A stretch of DNA of 64,000 nucleotides from Lentisphaerota bacterium (GTDB lineage Bacteria > Verrucomicrobiota > Lentisphaeria > Victivallales > Victivallaceae). Shown piece after piece: positions 51,103 to 61,360 of the stretch (position 1 is its first letter; each line of letters starts with the position of its first letter). The position numbers and the translations under genes are program-made. The notes beneath the pieces are model-generated. The model saw only the letters and a program-made list of their open reading frames with translations. It was not told the origin of the DNA and ran no database searches. The stretch lies in assembly GCA_015061625.1 (NCBI GenBank), contig SUWG01000001.1, positions 1 through 64,000 of the forward strand. The letters run 5' to 3'.

Positions 51103-52263
51103 ATGCGCCAAAATGACCGGCAACTGCCGATAATGACCTATCTGCGGAGTCTGGACTATCTGCAGATAGGGTCCGTAGTGCTGTTGCTGGTCTTCGGTCT
51201 GATCTTCATCCGTTCGACCGGAATGCAGATCGATACGGAAGAAAGCCGGAGTTTTTTCTACAAACAACTTATCTGGATCATCACCGGTGCGGGGGTGTAT
51301 ACCTTTGTATCGGTGCTGGATTACCGCTCTTTTGTCTGCCGCGCTATGATGATCGGCGGCTATGTGCTGTCGCTGTTTATGCTGGTTGCGGTGCTGTTTC
51401 TGGGGGTGAAGGTATTCGGTGCAACCAGATGGCTGAATATTTTCGGTTTCCGTCTGCAGCCTTCCGAACCGGCCAAACTGATGATAATCGGCATGATGGC
51501 GGCGATCTTTTCCGCCCCCCGGCTGGCCAAAAACAAGCTGCTCTGTATCTTTCTGGCCGCGATCACCGTGGCGATCCCTTTTCTGCTGATCGCCATTGAA
51601 CCGGACTTGGGCAGTGCGCTGGTTCTGCTCCCGGTTTCCGGAGCCATGCTCTTTTGTTTCGGCATCAAGTGGCGGTATGTGCTGCTCGGGGTGATCGCCA
51701 TTGCCGCCGGAATCGCCTTTATCCTCTTTGACAGTTTCCGGGATGACCCGCTGGTTCTGCGCAACTATCAGCGTGACCGGATCAAAATTTTTCTCAATCC
51801 CGGTTCCGACCGGGGCAACCGGGGACACAACGCCTATCAGGCCAAACTCGCCGTCGGTGCCGGCGGTGCTTCCGGCACCGGTATCGGCAAGGGAACTCAA
51901 AATGAACTGGGGTTTCTGCCGCATACGGTTTCCAACAACGACTTCATCTTTTCGGTCATTGCCGAGGAGACCGGTTTTGCCGGAGTGACGCTGCTCTTGA
52001 GTCTCTATGGCATTTTGCTCTATACGATTTTGCGGACGGCATTTCTGGTATCATCTTACGGCAGATATATCGCCTGCGGGGTGGCGACATTGATCTTCTG
52101 CCATATTTTCATCAATATCGGCATGAGTATCGGCATTGCTCCGGTGACCGGATTGCCGCTGCCGCTGGTCAGTTACGGCGGATCATTCATCCTGACCGCC
52201 ATGACCACGCTGGGCATCGTACAGTCGATCTACCGCCACACCAGAATCGATGCGGATGAATAA
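51103..52263 (+). CDS. rodA: RodA peptidoglycan glycosyltransferase
   Basis: RodA polymerises glycan strands in the elongasome with PBP2. The 386-residue membrane protein has about ten spans; FGATRWLNIFGFRLQPSEPAK, IEPDLGSALV (with the catalytic Asp) and GLPLPLVSYGGS are the SEDS-family motifs. It is 3 bases after purA, with GGAG before the ATG. No mreBCD or mrdA is adjacent. It is the last host gene before the virus-like cassette and converges with the repressor gene. Confidence 0.95.
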   Translation: MRQNDRQLPIMTYLRSLDYLQIGSVVLLLVFGLIFIRSTGMQIDTEESRSFFYKQLIWIITGAGVYTFVSVLDYRSFVCRAMMIGGYVLSLFMLVAVLFLGVKVFGATRWLNIFGFRLQPSEPAKLMIIGMMAAIFSAPRLAKNKLLCIFLAAITVAIPFLLIAIEPDLGSALVLLPVSGAMLFCFGIKWRYVLLGVIAIAAGIAFILFDSFRDDPLVLRNYQRDRIKIFLNPGSDRGNRGHNAYQAKLAVGAGGASGTGIGKGTQNELGFLPHTVSNNDFIFSVIAEETGFAGVTLLLSLYGILLYTILRTAFLVSSYGRYIACGVATLIFCHIFINIGMSIGIAPVTGLPLPLVSYGGSFILTAMTTLGIVQSIYRHTRIDADE

Positions 52264-52298
52264 ATATCCGGCAACTTCAACTGATCGCTTTTTTCCGG

Positions 52299-53204
52299 TC
52301 ACATTTCGCTGATCTTTTTGACGACCACCCCGATCCATGCGACATCCTCTTTATCAAAGGGGATGATGCGCCCTTCGGGGTTGTCACTGGTCAGCAGCAT
52401 CTGGGCGGGTGACTGTTTGCGCAGACGTTTGCAGACCACCTTTTCCGGAATACTGCTCTGATCTCTGAAACGCACTACCACCACCTTGTTATCGGGGATG
52501 GCTTCCAGATTTTCCGCCGGTTCGACCAGAACGATGTCGTCATCAAGTATCCGGGGTTCCATGGATATACCGTGGACTTTGAATGCTCTGGTATCCCGGC
52601 GGGAATCCGCCGGTACCGGCACGGTAGGAGTGGTTTCCGGATCCCAATTCTGCATTACCACAGCATCGGATTCCAGTGATTCCAGATGGCTGGCGGCATT
52701 GGCCCATTCGACGACCGGCACCGGGCGCACGAGCATTGCCCCATCCCGGAAAAGTCCGCGGGGCGAAAGCATCGCCAATTCCCCGGCGGTCAGCGGGGAT
52801 TTTTCCGGAGAACACTCCAGAACATCGAAAACTGCCGAAAGCACATCCGGGAACCAATTCAATTCGCCGTTGAAAAGGCGGATGAAAGTTTGCGGTGAAT
52901 TATAACCGACTGCCCGGCAGAGATATTCGACCGAGTTTATGCCGCATTTTTCCATCGCCTGCCGGAGAAATTCCCGCAGTGGCAAACTGTTTTTGATCGT
53001 ACCGGCAACCGGCGGCGGCGGGGAAAATTCCAGAAAAGGCTGCAGTTTTTCCCAGCAGTCATCGGTGATGGTCTTGACCTTGCCGCTCAAATAACGGGAA
53101 ATGTTGGAAGCACTGACCTGACTTCTGGCGGCCAATTCCTTGGCATCTCCGGCCTGAATGACCGCCTGCCGCAAGGCTTGCAATACCCGGTCATCTATTC
53201 TCAT
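52299..53204 (-). CDS. Phage-type repressor, tandem HTH plus S24 peptidase domain
   Basis: The 301-residue protein has an N-terminal HTH (about 18-42, ELAARSQVSASNISRYLSGK), a second XRE-like helical region (about 74-135, with SVEYLCRAVGYNSPQTFIRL) and a C-terminal LexA/CI-type S24 domain. The catalytic Ser214 (HGISMEP) and Lys259 (VVCKRL) are present, but the expected Ala-Gly cleavage site is replaced by WANAAS around 168-172, so self-cleavage is uncertain. It probably binds the three palindromes upstream and represses the packaging operon and itself. AAGGAGGATATC precedes the ATG. Confidence 0.9.
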   Translation of the reverse strand: MRIDDRVLQALRQAVIQAGDAKELAARSQVSASNISRYLSGKVKTITDDCWEKLQPFLEFSPPPPVAGTIKNSLPLREFLRQAMEKCGINSVEYLCRAVGYNSPQTFIRLFNGELNWFPDVLSAVFDVLECSPEKSPLTAGELAMLSPRGLFRDGAMLVRPVPVVEWANAASHLESLESDAVVMQNWDPETTPTVPVPADSRRDTRAFKVHGISMEPRILDDDIVLVEPAENLEAIPDNKVVVVRFRDQSSIPEKVVCKRLRKQSPAQMLLTSDNPEGRIIPFDKEDVAWIGVVVKKISEM

Positions 53205-53260
53205 GATATCCTCCTTACATTTCCCGGACGCATCCGGAATTACAATTAGTCAACAATAAT

Positions 53261-53288
53261 AATATACACTGAAATTGCGTGCATGCAA
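53261..53288 (-). promoter_or_regulatory. Repressor promoter with -35 inside operator 1
   Basis: Minus strand: TTGCAT (53283-53288), 16-base spacer, TATATT (53261-53266), about 50 bases before the repressor ATG. The -35 is inside operator 1, which suggests autorepression. Confidence 0.6.
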
Positions 53289-53293
53289 GCAAT
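53274..53293. promoter_or_regulatory. Operator 1 (palindrome)
   Basis: ATTGCGTGCATGCAAGCAAT is a 20-base near-perfect palindrome with one mismatched pair. It shares ATTGC/GCAAT ends with the two other sites and overlaps the -35 of the repressor promoter. Confidence 0.7.
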
Positions 53294-53320
53294 TTTTTCA
53301 AAAAAAGTTGATTTTGCGAC

Positions 53321-53348
53321 TTGAAAATTGCATCAATGCAATTATATT
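53321..53348 (+). promoter_or_regulatory. Rightward promoter of the packaging operon
   Basis: TTGAAA (53321-53326) and TATATT (53343-53348) are separated by exactly 16 bases, and those 16 bases are operator 2. Repressor binding there would block RNA polymerase. The transcript would start near 53355. Confidence 0.7.
53327..53342. promoter_or_regulatory. Operator 2 (palindrome in promoter spacer)
   Basis: ATTGCATCAATGCAAT is a perfect 7-base inverted repeat around CA. It fills the entire spacer of the rightward promoter. Its centre is 51 bases from that of operator 1. Confidence 0.75.
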
Positions 53349-53397
53349 GGGATTCCGGCGGCTGCAAATGGGCGGGCGATATTTTTTACCCGCGTCG

Positions 53398-53413
53398 ATT
53401 GCACGGATGCAAT
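53398..53413. promoter_or_regulatory. Operator 3 (palindrome in leader)
   Basis: ATTGCACGGATGCAAT has the same ATTGCA/TGCAAT arms with a 4-base centre. It lies about 43 bases into the rightward transcript, 71 bases from the centre of operator 2, and could act as a roadblock or looping partner. Confidence 0.7.
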
Positions 53414-53450
53414 CAAAAAAATATCAAATTTTTTCAAAAAGGATGTAAAA

Positions 53451-53651
53451 GTGACAAATCATGTGAGAAAAATCGCAGATCCGTTGATTTCACCGGGCGG
53501 AAAAATCTATTCTGCCGGGGGAATAAAGCGGCTTTGGCGGGAAATTTTTCCGGAGAGTGTTGACAATCGGGCGCATTGTTGGAAAAAGTCAATGCGCAGG
53601 AGTGATCACCATGACTCAAAACAACAACCATCAAACCTTAAAGGAAAGTGA
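53451..53651 (+). CDS. Small protein, first ORF of the packaging operon (GTG start)
   Basis: A 66-residue open frame starts with GTG at 53451, 7 bases after AAAGGA. It encodes a basic protein (PLISPGGKIYSAGGIKRLW in the first half; His- and Lys-rich end). It overlaps the TerS-like gene by 41 bases. I do not recognise it. A longer frame exists upstream, but it would cross operator 3 and the promoter. Its small size and missing family make it less certain than its neighbours. Confidence 0.45.
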   Translation: MTNHVRKIADPLISPGGKIYSAGGIKRLWREIFPESVDNRAHCWKKSMRRSDHHDSKQQPSNLKGK

Positions 53652-53859
53652 CGATAAACTTCTGAAATTGGTCGAAGAAGCTCTGCTGCGCCGGGCAACC
53701 GGTTATGAAGACGCTTCCGGTAAAGCGGTGCCGCCGGATGTGCGGGCAGCTATGTACTGGCTGGAAAACCGCTGTCCGGAAAGGTGGAAAAAGAACCGTT
53801 CCCCGGTCAAAGATGATGATCCGCAACAGCTGCTTACCGATGATGAAACCGCACTTTAA
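53611..53859 (+). CDS. TerS-like small terminase protein (short)
   Basis: The 82-residue protein starts at ATG 53611 with AGGAG upstream. It has a helical part (SDDKLLKLVEEALLRRATGY) then PPDVRAAMYWLENRCPERWKK, which resembles the C-terminal PPDTTAAIFWLKNRRPEKW-type segment of phage small terminase subunits. No DNA-binding HTH domain is present, so it is either a minimal TerS or the remainder of one. TerS selects the DNA for packaging by TerL. It is followed 25 bases later by the portal-like gene. Confidence 0.65.
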   Translation: MTQNNNHQTLKESDDKLLKLVEEALLRRATGYEDASGKAVPPDVRAAMYWLENRCPERWKKNRSPVKDDDPQQLLTDDETAL

Positions 53860-53884
53860 CCCATTCAAGTCAAGGAAAATATCT

Positions 53885-55276
53885 GTGAAAAACTATATCT
53901 TTCACCGCAAAAATGCCGAATATACCGCCAATGAAAGGCGGTGGAAACGGGCCGCCGAAGCCTATTCCGGCGGCAGAGAGTATATCGAACAGGCTCTCAT
54001 CCGGCACGTTTCCGAAATCGATCTGGAATTCGCCGAACGCCGCCGGCGGGCATATTACTTCAATTATCCGCGCGCCATCGCCAGACGGATAACCCAGTAC
54101 GCCTTGAGCGTTGACCCCGTGCGCCGCAATGCCGATATCGAATTGGTCGAAGATTGGAGCCGAACCGGTCTGCGCACCAACGATGTCATGCGCCAGTTGT
54201 CAACTTTACTCAACGTTTACGGCCGGGCATGGCTGCTGGTGGATATGCCGATCTTTGACGGTACTCCCAGCAAACTGCAAGCCAGAAACGAGCGTCTGCG
54301 CCCCTATGCCAGAGCGATTTCACCGCTTCAGGTGGTCGATTGGGCCTACGGCGAAGACGGCAAACTGCTCTGGGCTTTGATCGCCGAGGAGGAGTGCGTA
54401 TGCCCGGATCCATTCACTCCGCCGGTGCGCTTGCGCCGCCGCCGGTTGTATGACCGTAATTGCTGGCGGCTGTTTGAGAATAATGCCGGGAATATACAGG
54501 AGATCGCTTCCGGAGTGAATCCGACCGGCTGTGTGCCGCTGATCGGCATTACGGAGCCGGATGGTTTCGGCTTATCCGCCAACCACTGGTTCGAGGATGT
54601 CGTGCGTATCAGCGAAGCGATCCTCAACAATGAATCCGAAGCGCAGATGAATACGGTCAAACAGATGTTCGGGATGCTGGTGGTTTCCGACTCATTTGCC
54701 CGCAGTGCCAGAAAACTTGCCGCCGATGAGCGGAAAAATGACAATTTCGCCGCCACCGTGGCCCGCAGTGCGGCGATCATTGAGTCGGTGGATGAAAAAG
54801 GCATCAGCCGCTTCATCAGTCCTTCCGGAGTGGCGACCGACACCATCCGGGAAGAGAACCGCTACTTGAAACAGGAGTTGTACGATGTGGTAGGCCTGGC
54901 AGTGCAGAGCAATTCCAAAGAAAGGCAGAGCGCGGAATCCAAAGAGTGGGATTTCCAGAATGTCGCCCAGTTTCTGGCAGTGCGCGCGGAACTGCTCGAA
55001 CAGACCGAGTTGGATGCGTGGAAGATCATGCGCCGCTACGATCTGGATTTGAGCGTGCCGGAGATCCATTACAACCGCCGTTTCGCCGTGGGCGATCTGG
55101 CCGCCGGTATCGCCGGATTGCTGCAGCTTTCGGAAATCCCCGGCGGCAGAGCCTACCGCAAAGCAGTGAGCCGCACCGCCGTCGAATTGCTCGGCAATAT
55201 CGGCCCGGTAAGTGCCGCTGAAAAAGAGAAAATCAACCGTGAAATAGATCAGGAGAGTAACCATGCTGACCAGTGA
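53885..55276 (+). CDS. Phage portal-like protein
   Basis: The 463-residue protein probably forms the dodecameric portal at a capsid vertex. The N-terminal EYIEQALIRHVSEIDLEFAE, YYFNYPRAIARRITQYALS and LLNVYGRAWLLVDMP segments resemble SPP1-type/DUF4055-like portals, and the central NHWFEDVVRISEAILNNESE helix and C-terminal half fit too. I choose the GTG at 53885, with AAGGA 8 bases upstream; an in-frame ATG at 53840 lacks such a site. It overlaps the next ORF by 14 bases. Assignment rests on pattern and context. Confidence 0.72.
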   Translation: MKNYIFHRKNAEYTANERRWKRAAEAYSGGREYIEQALIRHVSEIDLEFAERRRRAYYFNYPRAIARRITQYALSVDPVRRNADIELVEDWSRTGLRTNDVMRQLSTLLNVYGRAWLLVDMPIFDGTPSKLQARNERLRPYARAISPLQVVDWAYGEDGKLLWALIAEEECVCPDPFTPPVRLRRRRLYDRNCWRLFENNAGNIQEIASGVNPTGCVPLIGITEPDGFGLSANHWFEDVVRISEAILNNESEAQMNTVKQMFGMLVVSDSFARSARKLAADERKNDNFAATVARSAAIIESVDEKGISRFISPSGVATDTIREENRYLKQELYDVVGLAVQSNSKERQSAESKEWDFQNVAQFLAVRAELLEQTELDAWKIMRRYDLDLSVPEIHYNRRFAVGDLAAGIAGLLQLSEIPGGRAYRKAVSRTAVELLGNIGPVSAAEKEKINREIDQESNHADQ

Positions 55277-55694
55277 AAATGAGTCCCCCGCCGCAATGCC
55301 CGCAAATGTACCGGAAAAAACTCCGGCCGAGCAACTGGCGGAATTGGAAAATGAGTATGCCCTGCTCAATCAGAAGTATGAGGCACTTCAGAAACGCAAC
55401 ATTCTGGAAAAAGTCTGCTTTGAAAGCGGCTGTACCGACCCCGATTATTTGCAGTTCTGCGCTGAACGCCAAGGGGTGAACCTTGAAGATGCGGAAGCTC
55501 TGCGGCAATTTGCCGGTGAATTTTCCGCTTCGGCTCCGGGGTGTTTCCACGCCCGGATCATTCCGGGAAGCAGTGCCGGAATGGTCAAATCTGCCCCCTC
55601 CTCTGCCGGGACAGCGGAGGAGGTCCCAGCCGGTGACCGGATCGCTTTGATCGCATTATCCATCGATAATGCACCCGATGCGGTCGGCCGATAA
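55263..55694 (+). CDS. Coiled-coil protein, capsid scaffold candidate
   Basis: The 143-residue protein has an Ala/Pro-rich start, a coiled coil (about 18-47, QLAELENEYALLNQKYEALQ), and the DPDYLQFCAERQGVNLEDAE segment; the C-terminal third is low-complexity. Its place between portal and capsid genes is where phages encode the scaffold (or scaffold-protease). No protease motif is visible. AGGAG precedes the ATG, which lies within the end of the portal gene. Confidence 0.55.
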   Translation: MLTSENESPAAMPANVPEKTPAEQLAELENEYALLNQKYEALQKRNILEKVCFESGCTDPDYLQFCAERQGVNLEDAEALRQFAGEFSASAPGCFHARIIPGSSAGMVKSAPSSAGTAEEVPAGDRIALIALSIDNAPDAVGR

Positions 55695-55779
55695 CATAAA
55701 CTTCTGCTGAATAAAGCAGTAAATTTCCCCGGCAAATGACCGGCGGATACCATCTGTAAACCACAACAAGGAGAAAACT

Positions 55780-56937
55780 ATGCTTTACAACTACTCTTTC
55801 GCCAACCGCAAACGTGACCTTTCCGATGTGATGGCAACTGTCATCAAGGATGAGCCGCGTTTCATTTCCAACTTCAAAACCGCTCCGGATGCCGCATCTG
55901 CCAAACATGAATATCTGGAAGATCAGCTCACCGGCCGCGGAGTCAATGCCTCTGCCGCCGCCAGTGGTGTGCTGACCTTGAGCGCGGCCGATGCCGCCAA
56001 ACTCAAAGTCGGCACTTTGCTGGCTCTCAAAGATGATCCGGCCCTTTTCCGGGTGACGGCCGTGACCGGTGAAAATGCCACACTGGAATTGGCGGGCAAC
56101 AACGGTTCCGACCTGACTGCGGCGACCGATCTGCCCGCAGAAGGCGGCAAATTCCTCATCGTTTCGACCCCGATGGGCGAAGGAACTTCCAACGGCGACG
56201 GTGAAGAAAATTATCACCTTTCCACGGTGGAGTGGAATGCCACACAGATCTTCCGTAAAGAGATCGTGCTTTCCGGTACGGCTCTGTCGGTAAACCTCTA
56301 CGGCAATGCCGACAATCAGTTGAACCGCCAGACCGCTTTTGCCCTTGCCGACCTCGCCCGTGACCTCAACCGGGTGGCACTTTTCGGCCGCCGGGTGGAA
56401 GCGACGGTCAACACCAGAGGCGAAGCCGGAGGATTGTACTTTTTCGGTACGCAGTCCGGAGTGCCGGTGATCGATGCCGCCAAAAGCAAACTTGACAGTT
56501 TCCTGATCAACGATGCGGCGCAGGCGGTTCTCGGTGAGGGCGGTGATCCGATGCAGATCCTCTGCTCTCCCGGTCAGGCACGGGTCATTTCCAATGAATA
56601 CCGTGACCGCATTTCAATTCTGCGTTCCGATGACCGCCGCGGGGCATACGTCGCCGTGATCGTCAACGAGATCAACGGCAGAGGCATGACCATCATGGCC
56701 GATCCGGATATGCCCGACGGTGATGCGTGGGTGCTGGATACCGGCTGTTTCGCTCTGGCCAGTCTTTCCGGCAGAGCGATCACCGATATGGATGCCACTC
56801 CGGGTGGTTTCGACGGCATCCGCCGGGTGGCGATCGGCGAATTGACCTTTGAATTCAAAAATGTCAAACAGCGTTGCTGCCGCATCAAAAATCTGCTGGC
56901 CAGCAGCGAGGCGATCGCCGCATTGCGCAACGCATAA
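55780..56937 (+). CDS. Major capsid protein, DUF5309/SU10-type
   Basis: The 385-residue protein has features of the SU10-like HK97-fold capsid family: the N-terminal KRDLSDVMATVIKDEPRFIS, the STVEWNATQIFRKEIVLSGTA block around residues 145-165, and the LADLARDLNRVALFGRRVE helix, followed by a peripheral part with SPGQARVISNEYRDRISI. There is an inserted domain rich in Ala/Gly (about 55-120) that may be surface-exposed. AAGGAG lies 7 bases before the ATG. It is complete, with no frameshift. Confidence 0.82.
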   Translation: MLYNYSFANRKRDLSDVMATVIKDEPRFISNFKTAPDAASAKHEYLEDQLTGRGVNASAAASGVLTLSAADAAKLKVGTLLALKDDPALFRVTAVTGENATLELAGNNGSDLTAATDLPAEGGKFLIVSTPMGEGTSNGDGEENYHLSTVEWNATQIFRKEIVLSGTALSVNLYGNADNQLNRQTAFALADLARDLNRVALFGRRVEATVNTRGEAGGLYFFGTQSGVPVIDAAKSKLDSFLINDAAQAVLGEGGDPMQILCSPGQARVISNEYRDRISILRSDDRRGAYVAVIVNEINGRGMTIMADPDMPDGDAWVLDTGCFALASLSGRAITDMDATPGGFDGIRRVAIGELTFEFKNVKQRCCRIKNLLASSEAIAALRNA

Positions 56938-57012
56938 AAAATGCCAACGGCCTCTTTCCCCCCTGCAAAACGGGGGGAAAGAGCGACTTTCAATAATAAA
57001 GGAATATAAAAT

Positions 57013-57429
57013 ATGACGCTGGTTGAAACTGATGAATTTTTCCGGGAACACCCGCTGAAAGAAAGTTACTTCAAATACAGTGAAAATGAGCGTTCCGGGA
57101 TTCTGGCAGTGGCCGCCAGAGATATTCAGGCGGCGGTATCCGGGATCGAACCGGTCAACGGCGATGAAAAGAATTTTATTGATGCCGCCATTGCCGAACA
57201 GACCATCTTTCTGATGCTCAATCCGGAGTATCTGACCGGCAAATACACCCGTACTGCGGCAGTCGGTTCCGGGGAAAGTATGCTGCGTTTCAGCGATCAA
57301 CTTTCCCCGCTGGGCCAGCGGGCGGCGGCATTGATCGCCCCGTTGCTCAAACGGGGGGAAAATTTGAAAGAAAATACAACTGATGCAACAGATATTCTGC
57401 CGCCGACGGTATCTCTGATGCGCGGTTGA
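57013..57429 (+). CDS. Head-tail connector-like protein
   Basis: The 138-residue protein follows the capsid gene, a typical place for an adaptor that binds the portal ring. It is helical, with AAIAEQTIFLMLNPEYLTG and GQRAAALIAPLLK segments resembling the phage gp6/DnaT-like connector family. The identification is from size, order and helical pattern; sequence similarity is weak. AAAGGAATATAAAAT precedes the ATG. Confidence 0.5.
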   Translation: MTLVETDEFFREHPLKESYFKYSENERSGILAVAARDIQAAVSGIEPVNGDEKNFIDAAIAEQTIFLMLNPEYLTGKYTRTAAVGSGESMLRFSDQLSPLGQRAAALIAPLLKRGENLKENTTDATDILPPTVSLMRG

Positions 57430-57462
57430 AACGATATCAGACAACTTAATGGTGATGTACTT

Positions 57463-57999
57463 ATGAATGACCCTGATTGTTACGGCAAATTCCCCAACGG
57501 CAATACTCCGTGTGCCAAATGCGATTACTTTGATTCCTGCCGCTATTACGCGGCAACTGCCAAAGCAGTCAACTGCCGGGAAAGACACATGGCAAGTTTT
57601 GAAAGAGCCTCATTCCTGGTGCCGGAAATGCCCGATTTTGACCATATCCCCGGCGAAGAAAAAAGTACGGAAACGGAAAACATCGTGGAAGCATTGAGCA
57701 AATTTTTCCGTTATCTGATCGACCTTGATGAGTATACGCTGGCATTGATTTGTCAAACGGTTTCCGGCGATGAGAATCATCAACCGGTAACAGTCAACTC
57801 TTTGAGTTCTCTGTTGGGCTGTTCCCGGCAGGCGGTACACCGGAAAATGCTTTCCGTGATCGCCGCCCATCCGGAGTTGTCCGGCTTTTTCCGCCGGGTG
57901 ATAACCAAATTTGCCGCGGCGAAAAGTTTGACCTGGCGGAGAAAAAAAGATGGCGGTGAATCATGTTCAGTTACACCCCGATCCAGCGCAAAGCTTTGA
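57463..57999 (+). CDS. Cys-rich N-terminus and HTH protein
   Basis: The 178-residue protein has five Cys in its first 40 residues (6, 17, 20, 26, 38; CAKCDYFDSC), suggesting a zinc or iron-sulfur site, a linker, and an HTH-like segment (about 108-135, VNSLSSLLGCSRQAVHRKML). It could regulate the cassette or replace the DNA-binding domain missing from the TerS-like protein. It overlaps terL by 37 bases. No family is recognised with confidence. Confidence 0.65.
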   Translation: MNDPDCYGKFPNGNTPCAKCDYFDSCRYYAATAKAVNCRERHMASFERASFLVPEMPDFDHIPGEEKSTETENIVEALSKFFRYLIDLDEYTLALICQTVSGDENHQPVTVNSLSSLLGCSRQAVHRKMLSVIAAHPELSGFFRRVITKFAAAKSLTWRRKKDGGESCSVTPRSSAKL

Positions 58000-59216
58000 A
58001 GTTACTGGCTTCGGCTGCCAATCATGTGATGCTTTTCGGCGGTTCCCGGTCGGGAAAGAGTTTTGTATTATGCTGTGCGCTGGTGGCAAGAGCGTTGAAT
58101 TCTCCGGGCAGCCGTCATGCGGTGGTGCGCAAATATTGCAGTGATGCCCGCACCACGATCGGGCTGGATACCTTGCCCAAAGTGCTTAAAAGCCGTTTCG
58201 GCAACCGGGTGCGGTGGAAATTCAATAAGGCGGAAAATTTTTTCCGCTTTGCCAACTCCTCGGAAATCTGGCTGATCGGTCTGGATGACGGCGAAAGAGC
58301 GGATAAAATTCTGGGCAAGGAGTTTGCCACGATCTACTTCAATGAGTGTTCGGAATTGGAGTACGCCAGCGTGCAGACCGCCCTTACCCGGCTGGCACAA
58401 AATGCGCCGCCGCTGGTCAACCGGGCATATTACGACTGCAATCCGCCGGGCAAAAGTCACTGGTGTTACCGGGTTTTCGTTGAAAAATGCGACCCGGTGA
58501 GCCGGGAAAGATTCACCCATCCGGAAAATTATGCAACATTGCAGATGAATCCGGGTGACAACCGGCGCAATCTGCCCGCCGATTATATCGAAAACACCCT
58601 CGCCAATCTGCCTGCCCGCCAGAAAGAACGTTTTCTGAAAGGCGAATGGCTCGACGATGACGAGGGCGCATTGTGGAGTTATGCGATGATCGATCCATTC
58701 CGGGTGGATGAAGTGCCGGAATTGGAAAAGATCTTCATCGGTGTCGATCCGGCAGTTACTTCATCACCGGGGAGCGACTGCACCGGCATCGTGGCCGTCG
58801 GCAGAGATGCTGACGGCGGATTTTATGTGCTTGCCGACCGGAGCCTCCGGGCGACTCCGGCAGTCTGGGCGCATGAAGCGGTGGAGTTGTTCCGTCAGGT
58901 GAATGCCGATAAGATCGTGGTCGAAGTGAATAACGGCGGAGAGTTGCTGAAAACCCTTTTCGCCGGAGAAGATGAGAATATTCCGGTAAAGCCGGTGCGG
59001 GCATTCAAAGATAAATATACCCGTGCCGAACCGGTGGCGGCATTGTATGAAAAAGGGGTGATCCACCATGCCGGGATATTTCCGGAACTGGAAAGCCAGA
59101 TGTGTTCATTCAAAGCCGGCGGGAATCATCACTCCCCTGACCGGATGGATGCGCTGGTGTGGGCAGTGAGCGAATTGGCACTGCTGCCGACCGGGAACCG
59201 CTTCATTACCGCATAA
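57963..59216 (+). CDS. terL: Terminase large subunit
   Basis: TerL is the ATP-driven DNA packaging motor and nuclease. The 417-residue protein has a Walker A GGSRSGKS (residues 26-33), ATIYFNECSE as Walker B, and an RNase H-like nuclease domain with IGVDPAV, VVEVNNGG and SPDRMDALVWA carrying acidic metal ligands. All key motifs are intact, so it is likely functional. Unusually it comes last in the operon; most phages encode it before the portal. The ATG follows GGTGA within the end of the previous gene. Confidence 0.9.
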   Translation: MFSYTPIQRKALKLLASAANHVMLFGGSRSGKSFVLCCALVARALNSPGSRHAVVRKYCSDARTTIGLDTLPKVLKSRFGNRVRWKFNKAENFFRFANSSEIWLIGLDDGERADKILGKEFATIYFNECSELEYASVQTALTRLAQNAPPLVNRAYYDCNPPGKSHWCYRVFVEKCDPVSRERFTHPENYATLQMNPGDNRRNLPADYIENTLANLPARQKERFLKGEWLDDDEGALWSYAMIDPFRVDEVPELEKIFIGVDPAVTSSPGSDCTGIVAVGRDADGGFYVLADRSLRATPAVWAHEAVELFRQVNADKIVVEVNNGGELLKTLFAGEDENIPVKPVRAFKDKYTRAEPVAALYEKGVIHHAGIFPELESQMCSFKAGGNHHSPDRMDALVWAVSELALLPTGNRFITA

Positions 59217-59234
59217 GGATCACATTGAATAACA

Positions 59235-59290
59235 GTATCCATCGTTGCCGGATACCATTCCGGATGATGACGGATGCTGTTTTTTTATTT
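59235..59290 (+). terminator. Rho-independent terminator of the packaging operon
   Basis: A long imperfect stem (left arm from 59235, right arm to 59277, with several G-U pairs, one mismatch and one bulge) with an 8-base loop is followed by TGTTTTTTTATTTT. It begins 18 bases after the terL stop and closes the cassette. Confidence 0.75.
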
Positions 59291-59370
59291 TCTGCGCTTC
59301 ACACTCCGGTATACCATCGGTTAAAAAAATATTTTTCATGAAAAATGGGGCTGTATCCGTCTATAACAAC

Positions 59371-59399
59371 TTGACATCCCGGCCAATATGCCGTATATT
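59371..59399 (+). promoter_or_regulatory. Promoter of the zinc-ribbon/helicase operon
   Basis: TTGACA (59371-59376), 17-base spacer, TATATT (59394-59399). The next start codon is at 59436, preceded by AGGAGG. This is one of the best consensus promoters in the window. Confidence 0.75.
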
Positions 59400-59435
59400 C
59401 TTTCACAATCAATTTATCACAGCAGGAGGATGACC

Positions 59436-60146
59436 ATGACCGATCCCGATTTGGAAGCATTGTTGATTTTACAGGAAGCCGATCTGCGGCGCAAAGGTAT
59501 GGAAAAACGTTTGGAATTGCTCCCCAGAGAGATGGATGCCATCATCGCCAGACGGGATAAACTCAATGCCTCGACTGCCGCCGCCCAGGAACTTCTGAAA
59601 AAAGAGGAACTTGCCGTCAAAAAATGCGAGGCCGAAATTGCCCGCCTGACTGAAGAAAGTCAGAAGTTGCAGCAGCAATCCGCCCTGGTCAAGAAAAATA
59701 ATGAGTATCAGGCCATGCTGGGGCAGATCGCCGATAACAAACGCAAGATCGGTTCTCTGGAAGAAGAAGTGCTGGAAAAATTCGACAAGGTCGCCGAACT
59801 CAAGGAAAATGCCGAAAAAATCAAACGCGCCAACGCCCTTGAGCTGCGCAACGCCAGAGCCGAATTCGAGGAGTTGCTCGCCTTTTCCAAAACCGTCAAA
59901 GGCGAGATCGCCAAAGCCGTTGCCGACCGCCCGGCACTGACCGCCAATGTGCGTGACGAATTGCTTTCCACCTACAACCGTCTGCTCAAAGGCAAAGAGG
60001 GCACCGCACCTTTGACCAAACTGGATAACGGCTGTTGCGGCAACTGCCACATGAAAGTCACCATGCAGACCGCCAATGAGTTATCCAAAGGCAAAATCGA
60101 GCATTGCGACAACTGTCAGCATCTGCTCTATGCCGATCCGGAGTAA
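59436..60146 (+). CDS. Coiled-coil C4 zinc-ribbon protein
   Basis: The 236-residue protein has a long coiled coil (about 5-165) and a C-terminal zinc ribbon with CCGNC and CDNC pairs (CGNCHMKVTMQ ... HCDNCQHLLY), the zf-RING_7 type found in many bacteria and proposed to bind nucleic acids or proteins. I start at the second ATG (59436), 6 bases after AGGAGG, because the first ATG abuts the ribosome site. It leads the operon to the helicase. Confidence 0.87.
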   Translation: MTDPDLEALLILQEADLRRKGMEKRLELLPREMDAIIARRDKLNASTAAAQELLKKEELAVKKCEAEIARLTEESQKLQQQSALVKKNNEYQAMLGQIADNKRKIGSLEEEVLEKFDKVAELKENAEKIKRANALELRNARAEFEELLAFSKTVKGEIAKAVADRPALTANVRDELLSTYNRLLKGKEGTAPLTKLDNGCCGNCHMKVTMQTANELSKGKIEHCDNCQHLLYADPE

Positions 60147-60151
60147 ATTTC

Positions 60152-61360
60152 ATGAGGTCTTACGACTTTGCCGAATTGGTTTACCGGAAAGTTGAATCCG
60201 ATGAACTTGATTACAAATCCGCTATGTCATGGCGGACGATGACCCGGCAGGAAAAGGGTAAGATCGTCCGTCATCTGACCGCATTCGCCAATACCCGCGG
60301 CGGTTTTCTGGTCATCGGCGTATCCGAAGATGTTTCCGGAGTTCCCTCGCTCTACACCGGTGTAAGCGAGGAACAGGCCGGTTCATTCGATCCGACCCCG
60401 GTGGGGGATTTCATCAATGCCCATATCGAACCGGCATTGGATTACACCATCGAGCGGCCGCTGATCGACGGCAAACGTTATGTGATTTTTGTGGTGAAAC
60501 CGTTTAAGCAACTGCCGCACGTCTGTTCCCGCGGCGTGGAAAATGAGTTGCAGGAGGGGATATTCTACATCCGCACCGCCGAAGCATCGAGCCGTCCGGC
60601 CCGCCGGGCGCACGAAATGCAGGAACTTCTGCGCCGCTGTATGCGCAACGAAAGAGAACAGCTCGGCCGTATCCTGCGGGGCATCCTCTACGAGACCCGG
60701 CAGAGTGCCGCCGGAGAAAAGAGCCGTTTGAGCGACCAGATCCTGGATGCGGAGCGTTACTTCCGCCACCGGCGCAACCGCAACGGCATCTGTCTGAAAT
60801 TTGCCATGTACCCCGACCGCGCACTAAATTCAGCATCAACCCCTGCCGATCTGCATGAAGCGGTGAAAAAATCGGTATTCCCCTGCAGCAAACCGGAATT
60901 TTTAAGTCAGAATGCCGCTGCCGGCGGTCAGGCCGCCAATGGTTCGGTGCGTTTCTTATCGGTTGAACAACCTTTGATGTGGCAATTTTTCGACAATGGT
61001 TTATTCTGTTTTTTCCGGGATGTGGAAAGCAACCGGATAACGTTGGAAAATCTCGCCAGATTCTGCGCGGAAAGTACCCGTTTCGCCGGAAAACTGGCGC
61101 AAAATCTGAATTTAAGTGAAGAATTGCTCACCTTGAAAATATCCCTTTCACCCGCCGATGAAGCGGTCATCGAACCGGATTACCGCACCGGGGAAAAGGA
61201 AGTTGCCGCCGAGATCCGCCGCAGTGCCGCCGACCTGATCAGCGGTCAGGAGCAGCACGCCGCCCGGCTTCTGCGCCGTATCGGGGAACAATTTCAGTTG
61301 CCGGATAAGCAGTTGGATCATTTTCACAGTGCCATAAGCACCTTTCTGGAGTGCCGCTGA
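60152..61360 (+). CDS. AlbA_2 (Schlafen-type) domain protein
   Basis: The 402-residue protein has an N-terminal AlbA_2 domain (about 1-150) with ESDELDYKSAM, FANTRGGFLVIGVSED and a GIFYIR motif near 155, which in relatives is a putative nucleic-acid-binding or nuclease-like fold. The remainder is helical and not recognised. GGAG precedes the ATG. Its stop overlaps the helicase start (TGATG), suggesting joint function. It could be a regulator or part of a nucleic-acid stress or defence response. Confidence 0.8.
   Translation: MRSYDFAELVYRKVESDELDYKSAMSWRTMTRQEKGKIVRHLTAFANTRGGFLVIGVSEDVSGVPSLYTGVSEEQAGSFDPTPVGDFINAHIEPALDYTIERPLIDGKRYVIFVVKPFKQLPHVCSRGVENELQEGIFYIRTAEASSRPARRAHEMQELLRRCMRNEREQLGRILRGILYETRQSAAGEKSRLSDQILDAERYFRHRRNRNGICLKFAMYPDRALNSASTPADLHEAVKKSVFPCSKPEFLSQNAAAGGQAANGSVRFLSVEQPLMWQFFDNGLFCFFRDVESNRITLENLARFCAESTRFAGKLAQNLNLSEELLTLKISLSPADEAVIEPDYRTGEKEVAAEIRRSAADLISGQEQHAARLLRRIGEQFQLPDKQLDHFHSAISTFLECR

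Follow-up and report, generated by a model that had tools for sequence, protein, structure and literature searches.

Introduction

Gene transfer agents (GTAs) are known from few lineages. The genes of RcGTA lie mainly in one large cluster, VSH-1 of Brachyspira is a GTA with a divided genome, PBSX occupies one contiguous locus, and satellites of the capsid-forming phage-inducible island (cf-PICI) type carry their own capsid and packaging genes together with a repressor. Here we analyse a 64,000-nucleotide stretch of DNA (the window) from a Lentisphaerota bacterium of the family Victivallaceae (assembly GCA_015061625.1, contig SUWG01000001.1, positions 1 to 64,000), which contains at 52299–59290 a cassette encoding an S24 repressor (REP), a small terminase subunit (TerS), a portal protein, a scaffold candidate, an SU10-type major capsid protein (MCP), a connector-like protein, a Cys-rich helix-turn-helix protein (Cys-HTH) and a large terminase subunit (TerL), followed by a terminator. 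With a probability of about 0.72, we read this cassette as the head and packaging locus of a GTA-like element that was domesticated from a siphovirus, is spread over several loci, is inherited vertically in Victivallaceae and likely works like a GTA in design. Put plainly, an ancient virus seems to have become a lasting part of the genome in a gut bacterium and in most of its relatives, and its genes may give rise to particles loaded with DNA of the host cell.

RcGTA and its relatives in Alphaproteobacteria are described as vertically inherited, prophage-derived head, packaging and tail genes at several unlinked loci (PMC6854486, PMC11841831), as are the genes analysed here. PBSX-like defective prophages are GTA-like and package 13.4-kb host fragments (PMC12946183), and homology and synteny are considered unusable as yet for finding GTAs, owing to their several origins and their spread over several loci (PMC11841831). 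Our literature search, made partly by title and with mostly open-access coverage, showed among the papers listed no GTA report for Lentisphaerota, Victivallales, Planctomycetes or the Planctomycetes–Verrucomicrobia–Chlamydiae (PVC) superphylum; a GTA in the PVC group would, to our knowledge, be the first. Victivallaceae would add family-wide, scattered and co-maintained phage genes to the known lineages, in a case that is graded from clustered to dispersed and that comes with sister prophages for comparison.

Unlike in RcGTA, the head and packaging genes, the tail tube and the tail tip stand apart in Victivallaceae and, in other genera than that of the window, so do MCP, portal and TerL. The set also differs from RcGTA in its phage ancestor (SU10-type MCP, phrog_145 portal), its CI/LexA-type repressor and its phylum. 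VSH-1 is likewise a divided set of GTA loci; its genes are not known to be related to the Victivallaceae set. PBSX shares the GTA-like character, and the Victivallaceae TerL matches the PBSX-family TerL model below the cut-off of that model (60 of 105 bits). In contrast to cf-PICI, the cassette has no integrase or replication gene that we could see, is near genus-wide and has tail genes in the same genome. The siphoprophages of Victivallaceae, for their part, differ in being contiguous and in carrying a tape measure and further tail genes.

Results

MCP, portal and TerL genes occur together across Victivallaceae

The window is contig C36 of G000, the genome under study (2.7 Mb, 44 contigs, 91% complete). 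MCP was found in 33 of 240 genomes drawn across the phylum, with only three matches outside the family (49% identity; two weak). Among 78 genomes of the family, MCP was present in 64, TerL in 66, portal in 65 and the control gene purA in 74; all three phage genes occurred in 64 genomes, none in 12 and part of the set in two, namely G263 (a TerL fragment only; 83% complete) and G278 (no MCP; 86% complete). TerL and portal accompanied MCP in every case (64/64). For the 44 genomes outside the window's genus, TerL and MCP were both present in 34 and both absent from nine, with TerL alone in one and MCP alone in none (Fisher 1e-8, a statistic without correction for phylogeny). Most genomes held one copy; second copies include those of prophages (G028, G135 and G275) and a second pair in G259. 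No internal stop was found in any listed MCP or TerL match. Portal matches showing stops were those of G275:C58 (two), G197, G150, G132 and a fragment in G251; the stops in G197 and G150 are probably natural ends, since the gene calls give open frames of 456–457 amino acids (aa), and the G275:C58 portal looks broken.

Within the window's genus (34 genomes, 30 of them with MCP), the order REP-TerS-portal-scaffold-MCP-connector-CysHTH-TerL recurs in the loci examined, and every one of the 30 genomes with MCP keeps portal, MCP and TerL linked in one order, those of G259, G262 and G265 being cut by contig ends. Elsewhere in the family, a scaffold-MCP-connector unit, the portal and TerL (sometimes with TerS) stood mostly at separate loci, and in the loci read the portal was often paired with a head-closure-like gene of about 97 aa. 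In the 34 non-genus genomes compared, taking the best place of each gene, no MCP lay within 15 kb of TerL, three lay within that distance of a portal (G279, G147 and G028), and portal and TerL did so in two genomes (G275 and G276); in G278, outside this set of 34, portal and TerL are 5.5 kb apart. Because most genomes are drafts, the firm cases of dispersal are those on long contigs. In particular, MCP, portal and TerL of G006 lie on a single contig at 0.57, 1.86 and 2.24 Mb, and in G147 MCP is 11.5 kb from the portal, with TerL 170 kb away and two tail-tube copies after the connector, the TerL-MCP distance in these two genomes being 0.17–1.7 Mb.

Independent named records, covering 59 loci from Lentisphaerota/Victivallales or uncultured bacteria, gave the same picture; Victivallis vadensis DSM 14823 and strain zth2, the latter with a complete genome (CP071032), are among them. 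Those metagenome-assembled genomes of the genus that have a named source came from ruminant or horse gut. At the locus that we take, from its matching portal coordinate, to be that of V. vadensis (L068, G009:C31), we noted only a C-terminal MCP fragment, beside a gene resembling a large serine recombinase; the N-terminal part of MCP was not found in G009, and the MCP gene of this type strain may have been disrupted by a mobile element.

The cassette occupies several chromosomal sites, adjoining rodA in several close relatives and standing at other sites, likewise shared, in further ones; no flanking repeats were found around it. No flanking gene was held in common with prophage loci at 26 of 29 genus loci; the other three shared one gene each, which we regard as host genes adjacent to the prophage of G275. 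Beside rodA in four relatives (L034, L125, L126 and L127), the cassette is oriented opposite to that of the window (52263–59400).

Tail genes lie at unlinked loci of the same genome

The original prediction had described the cassette as head-and-packaging-only and had listed tail, replication and integrase genes as absent. This is true locally, in that none was seen in the cassette or among its neighbours in the window (flanking genes of relatives were not scanned for integrases), but it is misleading for the genome, because tail-tube and tail-tip genes lie unlinked on other contigs. The putative tail tube of G000 is a solitary 144-aa gene (C8:53123–53536) detected in a tube-profile search (E 2e-28). 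Its assignment is based on the position of the gene before a chaperone and the tape measure in prophages, on weak matches to phrog_885, 'major tail protein' (E 0.0024 for a prophage copy and 0.025 for a zth2 copy, both of which 'Ig domain' PHROGs match better), and on the mostly beta model of a zth2 copy, which has a moderate pLDDT of 67.5. The only two matches of the tube to PDB profiles are both tail tubes, at a non-significant E of 0.16. The tube was found in 26 of the 34 genus genomes (24 of the 30 with MCP) and in 8 of 18 other genera, where some matches lie within prophages; the ORF neighbouring the G251 match is identical to one in G269, and that match may be contamination. The solitary G000 gene is followed immediately by a tRNA-like gene (L208, 10348–10632). 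In G147, which is strain zth2, two diverged tube copies stand in tandem behind the capsid genes (L053, 11140–12059), and two more tube-like matches lie elsewhere in the genome.

A search with the sequence motif described below led to contig C35, where a seven-gene operon (53, 277, 286, 308, 237, 634 and 120 aa; L316) begins just after a motif copy. Its 277-aa protein (t277) is homologous to the protein encoded behind the tape measure of two prophages (E 4e-13 and 4e-14), its 634-aa fibre protein has a C-terminal Laminin_G_3 lectin domain (E 4e-13), and its 120-aa protein is a DUF1353 (E 1e-18) or phrog_1158 protein, labelled tail assembly chaperone; the 53-, 286-, 308- and 237-aa proteins had no significant match. 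t277 was present in 44 of the 78 family genomes and in 31 of the 34 of the genus. In nine relatives it adjoins the same 44-aa ORF, presumably rpmH, which indicates a fixed site. As measured to contig ends in G000, the tube lies at least 52 kb from the cassette and at least 38 kb from this tail-tip operon. A tape-measure match was obtained in 15 of the 78 family genomes, several of these matches being in known prophages.

Sister prophages carry contiguous homologues of the cassette genes

Contiguous homologues of the cassette genes occur in the prophages G028:C10, G275:C90 and G135:C40 and in the IMG/VR record 3300021136_000034. Portal, scaffold, connector and tail tube have homologues there, as do TerL and MCP in most, and t277 where the tail region was seen; the Cys-HTH protein also occurs in related prophages. 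These prophages add head-closure, tail completion, terminator, tube, chaperone and tape-measure genes, not all in each, with several of the names assigned by position. Such homologues indicate that the cassette is, as judged from sequence, derived from a siphovirus group. Longer homologous prophages with tail genes, which according to the original prediction would make the cassette an ordinary decaying prophage, thus do exist in the family; they do not make it one, since conservation of both the cassette and the dispersed genes is independent of these prophages. Its statement that this is not a whole phage agrees with our analysis, in which the contiguous integrase, replication, tail and lysis modules of a complete temperate prophage were not encountered. 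The nearest relatives of TerL in the phage collection are those of two Synechococcus phages (42% identical). The published phages WC36-2 and zth2-2, considered as a source, had no significant match to the cassette, the tube or t277 (best E 0.039, TerL).

The three loci share an upstream motif

A 24-nt motif, GTTGACAATCGGGCGCATTGTTGG (53559–53582, + strand), with a pattern of about GTTGAC[AG]AT...G.GCAT...TGG, is present before TerS in the window and before the tail-tube and tail-tip loci on other contigs. Sites in G000 number one, two, two and 12 at zero, one, two and three mismatches, respectively, so that 17 occur at up to three mismatches, compared with 3 for a reversed control; the three sites at up to one mismatch are exactly the TerS, tube and tail-tip loci. 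Both of the two-mismatch sites lie inside called genes and were taken as chance. A weight matrix built from the TerS sites of other genomes ranked TerS 1st, tail-tip 2nd and tube 4th of 272,682 positions in the stretches of G000 analysed.

The motif preceded TerS in 9 of 10 close relatives examined (G000 included) and the tube in 10 of 12 (the exceptions being G031 and G261), and its GTTGAC start was seen by eye before TerS in more distant members of the genus (L039, L041, L042, L048, L049 and L129). Among 22 t277 loci examined, 12 had GTTGAC upstream and 11 of these had a motif-like sequence, all within the 12 genomes of what we group as the window's subclade; at the G150 locus GTTGAC is present in a sequence unlike the motif. 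Across loci, motif copies agreed at 10.6 of 18 positions within a genome and at 8.3 between genomes (0/5000 permutations); the tail-tip set used for this excluded G150 (for its unlike sequence), G185, G019 and the prophage of G028. This likeness within genomes is what would be expected if one trans-acting factor reads all three loci; candidates for such a factor are the product of a short ORF behind promoter P1 (see below) and the Cys-HTH protein. The motif was also considered as a coding peptide of the short ORF and rejected, as that frame hits stops (by eye) at the G260 tube and the G141 t277 locus.

The genes are under purifying selection and diverge in step with purA

Ratios of dN/dS were calculated by the Nei-Gojobori method for G000 against G267, G197 and G260, and all computed values were below 0.4 (one Cys-HTH value was not computable). 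Against G267 they were 0.06 for portal, 0.08 for MCP, 0.09 for REP, 0.10 for TerS, 0.11 for t277, 0.12 for TerL, 0.13 for the tube, 0.27 for scaffold, 0.28 for t286, 0.30 for Cys-HTH and 0.33 for connector, with 0.035 for purA and 0.11 for rodA as reference genes. The cassette and tail genes gave 0.10–0.39 against G197 and G260, where synonymous sites are near saturation for many, and REP gave 0.09–0.18 over the three pairs. The check that the original prediction had proposed for TerL and MCP therefore returned values (0.12 and 0.08, G267 pair) well below 1. Distances correlated with those of purA, over the 11–22 of 34 genomes with both sequences, at 0.92 for portal (n = 22), 0.88 for MCP, 0.84 for scaffold, 0.78 for t277, 0.77 for the tube, 0.71 for TerL and 0.56 for REP (n = 16); the observed correlation was reached by 3/2000 permutations for REP and by 0/2000 for the others. 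Presence across the family, mostly in single copy, open frames, purifying selection and a divergence that tracks a housekeeping gene all bear out the earlier suggestion of a GTA-like or domesticated prophage core, and dN/dS and open frames lend no support to its alternative of a relic.

TerL retains what we take to be its catalytic-type positions, with Walker A GGSRSGK in 50/50 sequences, D262 and E321 in 54/54 and D396 in 53/54. By eye, among 31 TerS compared, those of the window's subclade (about 73–84 aa) are without the N-terminal HTH-like part that is present in prophage TerS (152–155 aa). The TerS of RcGTA is likewise without an N-terminal HTH, which has been proposed as a mark of GTA-type TerS (Sherlock et al., PMC6854486), and this analogy suggests a relaxed choice of DNA by TerS in the window's lineage only.

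A repressor gene and conserved predicted operators flank the structural genes

REP (52299–53204, − strand) is a CI/LexA-type repressor, divergent from the structural genes, with an N-terminal HTH and a C-terminal S24 peptidase (Pfam Peptidase_S24 E 6e-15; phrog_4 E 1e-24), the serine of which lies, by eye, in GISMEP; a sequence relative in the PDB was absent at E 0.001. The predicted operator cluster (53274–53413, + strand) comprises two perfect copies of ATTGCAYNNRTGCAAT (53327–53342 and 53398–53413) and a third with two mismatches (53274–53289). The first perfect copy fills the spacer of promoter P1 (TTGAAA-16-TATATT; 53321–53348, + strand), which was found by an independent promoter scan. 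At least one perfect copy of the palindrome core TTGCAYNNRTGCAA was present in 21 of 22 REP-TerS intergenics, such intergenics account for 36 of the 38 matches to this core across the 1.7 Mb that were mapped, and the operator lies in the spacer of a sigma-70-like promoter at 18 of 22 loci. Taken alone, the operator at up to two mismatches is not unusual in the window (3 sites; 9/100 shuffles reach 3), and it is conservation that gives the prediction its weight. A genome-wide regulon of the repressor was considered and rejected, the only sites outside the cassette being two with one mismatch, both within called genes.

In six REP homologues (L039, L041, L042, L129, L044 and L132) the S24 serine position is, by eye, occupied by Q, E or M, so the repressor seems to be without self-cleavage in some lineages; operators are kept at each of the six. 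In L040, L043, L060 and L131 the cassette has no called REP beside it. Behind P1, a short ORF (53451–53651, + strand; 66 aa, GTG start) with the motif IADPLISPxGKIYSxxGIKRL overlaps the start of TerS and is a candidate early regulator; its strict motif was found in 8 of 31 TerS-bearing loci, with similar sequences seen by eye in some others.

Features of the cassette

Eight open genes occupy 52299–59216, between genes that we take, from reading their sequences, to be rodA and a zinc-ribbon-like gene. Pfam and PHROG gave significant family matches for REP, TerS, portal, MCP and TerL. In particular, and with all coordinates on the + strand, TerS (53611–53859; 82 aa) matched phrog_309 (E 5e-11), the portal (53885–55276) phrog_145 (E 6e-44), and MCP (55780–56937), presumably of HK97 fold, SU10_MCP PF17236 (E 7e-46). 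TerL (57963–59216), with ATPase and nuclease domains intact (PF17289, PF03237), matched Terminase_6C (E 2e-21), phrog_979 (E 6e-66) and the solved terminase 5oea (E 1e-6). The scaffold candidate (55263–55694), the connector-like protein (57013–57429) and Cys-HTH (57463–57999; upstream of and overlapping TerL) had no match above chance in these databases, bar a weak HTH_11 match in Cys-HTH (E 0.003), and are assigned from their position and conservation, which for the connector is beside MCP and for Cys-HTH extends to synteny. An AlphaFold model of the connector (pLDDT 86.5) is mostly helical. PDB profile searches gave nothing above chance for the connector (best E 0.14), the portal (0.39) or t277 (0.46). 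The cassette is closed by a predicted intrinsic terminator (59226–59292) with an RNA fold of −29.2 kcal/mol and a T tract (z −6.5; 0/200 shuffles as good), which a simple terminator scan had missed. Gene content and order at 52299–59290 are as the original prediction described them, the frames are open, and the closing terminator is real.

Discussion

The set can be taken to share with GTAs its phage-derived structural and packaging genes and its vertical inheritance and selection in a host clade, and the loci are so far apart that one particle could presumably not move them together. No self-replication or integration genes were seen in the cassette or among its neighbours in the window; unlinked ones may exist. 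From the conserved operators and promoter, we propose that REP binds the operators before TerS, one of them inside P1, and so holds the cassette off. Once repression is lifted, P1 would yield the short ORF and possibly more, and the motif observed at all three unlinked units would drive the cassette, the tube and the tail-tip/fibre operon together. Capsids would then assemble, TerL with the HTH-less TerS would pack arbitrary host DNA by a headful mechanism, and tails would join the capsids to give particles that deliver host DNA to relatives.

Several points weigh against this reading. The element is known here from its genes. The tube was not found in six cassette-bearing genomes of the genus, nor in 10 of the 18 other genera, and the G000 copy is without any family match. 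With a three-row profile, no tape measure was found in G000 or in 31 of the 34 genus genomes; in G000 the search did not extend to genes for tail terminator, completion or lysis. The motif was derived from the TerS and tube sites, so only the third (tail-tip) site is a prediction; part of it is a −35-like TTGACA, and it is missing from all three loci of G031 (tube, TerS and t277), from the G261 tube and from the examined t277 loci outside the window's subclade. The Mantel permutations are compatible with occasional transfer, REP tracking purA least; TerS of other lineages of the genus (125–159 aa) keeps, by eye, an HTH-like N terminus; many genomes are drafts, in which different contigs alone are no proof of distance; and V. 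vadensis DSM 14823 seemingly has only its C-terminal MCP fragment beside the recombinase-like gene.

That the cassette is a cf-PICI-like, capsid-forming satellite, which would form DNA-filled heads of its own and borrow the tails of a helper phage, was one of the original suggestions. A repressor next to head and packaging genes, without tail genes nearby, would suit it, as would several chromosomal sites and either orientation beside rodA, but we consider it very improbable in view of a presence in 30 of 34 genus genomes in step with purA, a cassette with no integrase or replication gene seen and no flanking repeats, and the same genes standing apart in other genera; the genome moreover has unlinked tail genes of its own behind the shared motif, although these make up only part of a tail. 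We give just as little credence to an ordinary decaying prophage remnant. The longer siphoprophages of the family (G028:C10, G275:C90 and G135:C40) lend it some plausibility, yet the portal-MCP-TerL order is kept in 30/30 genomes, the listed MCP and TerL matches have no stops, dN/dS is below 0.4 throughout, catalytic residues, operators and motif are conserved, and common control across unlinked loci is indicated.

Two further explanations are unlikely, to a similar degree, and weigh somewhat more. The capsid might have been domesticated for another cell function, as a compartment that stores or destroys DNA, a bactericidal particle or a defence against superinfection. The tape measure was not found, which leaves a normal long tail in doubt; the scaffold-MCP-connector unit stands alone in other genera; and a fibre tipped with a lectin would fit a killing particle as well. 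However, an encapsulin-like nanocompartment is a capsid with cargo and without packaging machinery, which is not the arrangement here: an active-site-complete TerL and a portal, which neither a pure nanocompartment nor a tailocin would need, occur wherever MCP does (64/64), and most of the genus retains the tail tube. Alternatively, the shared motif might be a generic strong promoter, so that the three loci would not form one system. It does hold the −35 consensus TTGACA, and two further two-mismatch sites lie inside called genes, but the genome's three sites at up to one mismatch are all phage structural loci, the excess over the reversed control (17 versus 3) is marked, and motif variants co-vary between loci within genomes.

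We thus favour the domesticated, multi-locus, GTA-like element. A bolder version of it, in which Victivallaceae have an ancient, working and independently evolved GTA, its scattered loci bound by a repressor switch and a co-evolving late-promoter motif and expressed in zth2, seems to us as easily wrong as right. The strains WC36 and zth2 yield hexagonal particles with polysaccharide (<100 nm in WC36), a portal gene is strongly induced, among the most induced, in WC36, and the phage genomes sequenced there are reported to lie outside the host chromosomes (PMC11361711). We conjecture that the hexagonal particles or the induced portal may be linked to the cassette genes, and such a GTA might be the source of the particles photographed in cultured members such as zth2. 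A cultured relative with a complete genome makes the case testable, and the concerted presence or absence of unlinked packaging genes, together with a shared promoter motif, suggests a rule by which other such elements could be recognized.

Other observations

Between the zinc-ribbon gene and one for a dinG-like helicase, the window also contains a gene with a Schlafen/AlbA_2 domain at 60104–61360 (Pfam E 8e-14); REP, Cys-HTH and this Schlafen-like neighbour had no match in a defence library. Directly 5' of TerL in five loci of genus g2 (L103 and L106–L109) lies a gene for a protein family of 483–503 aa, possibly a further component.

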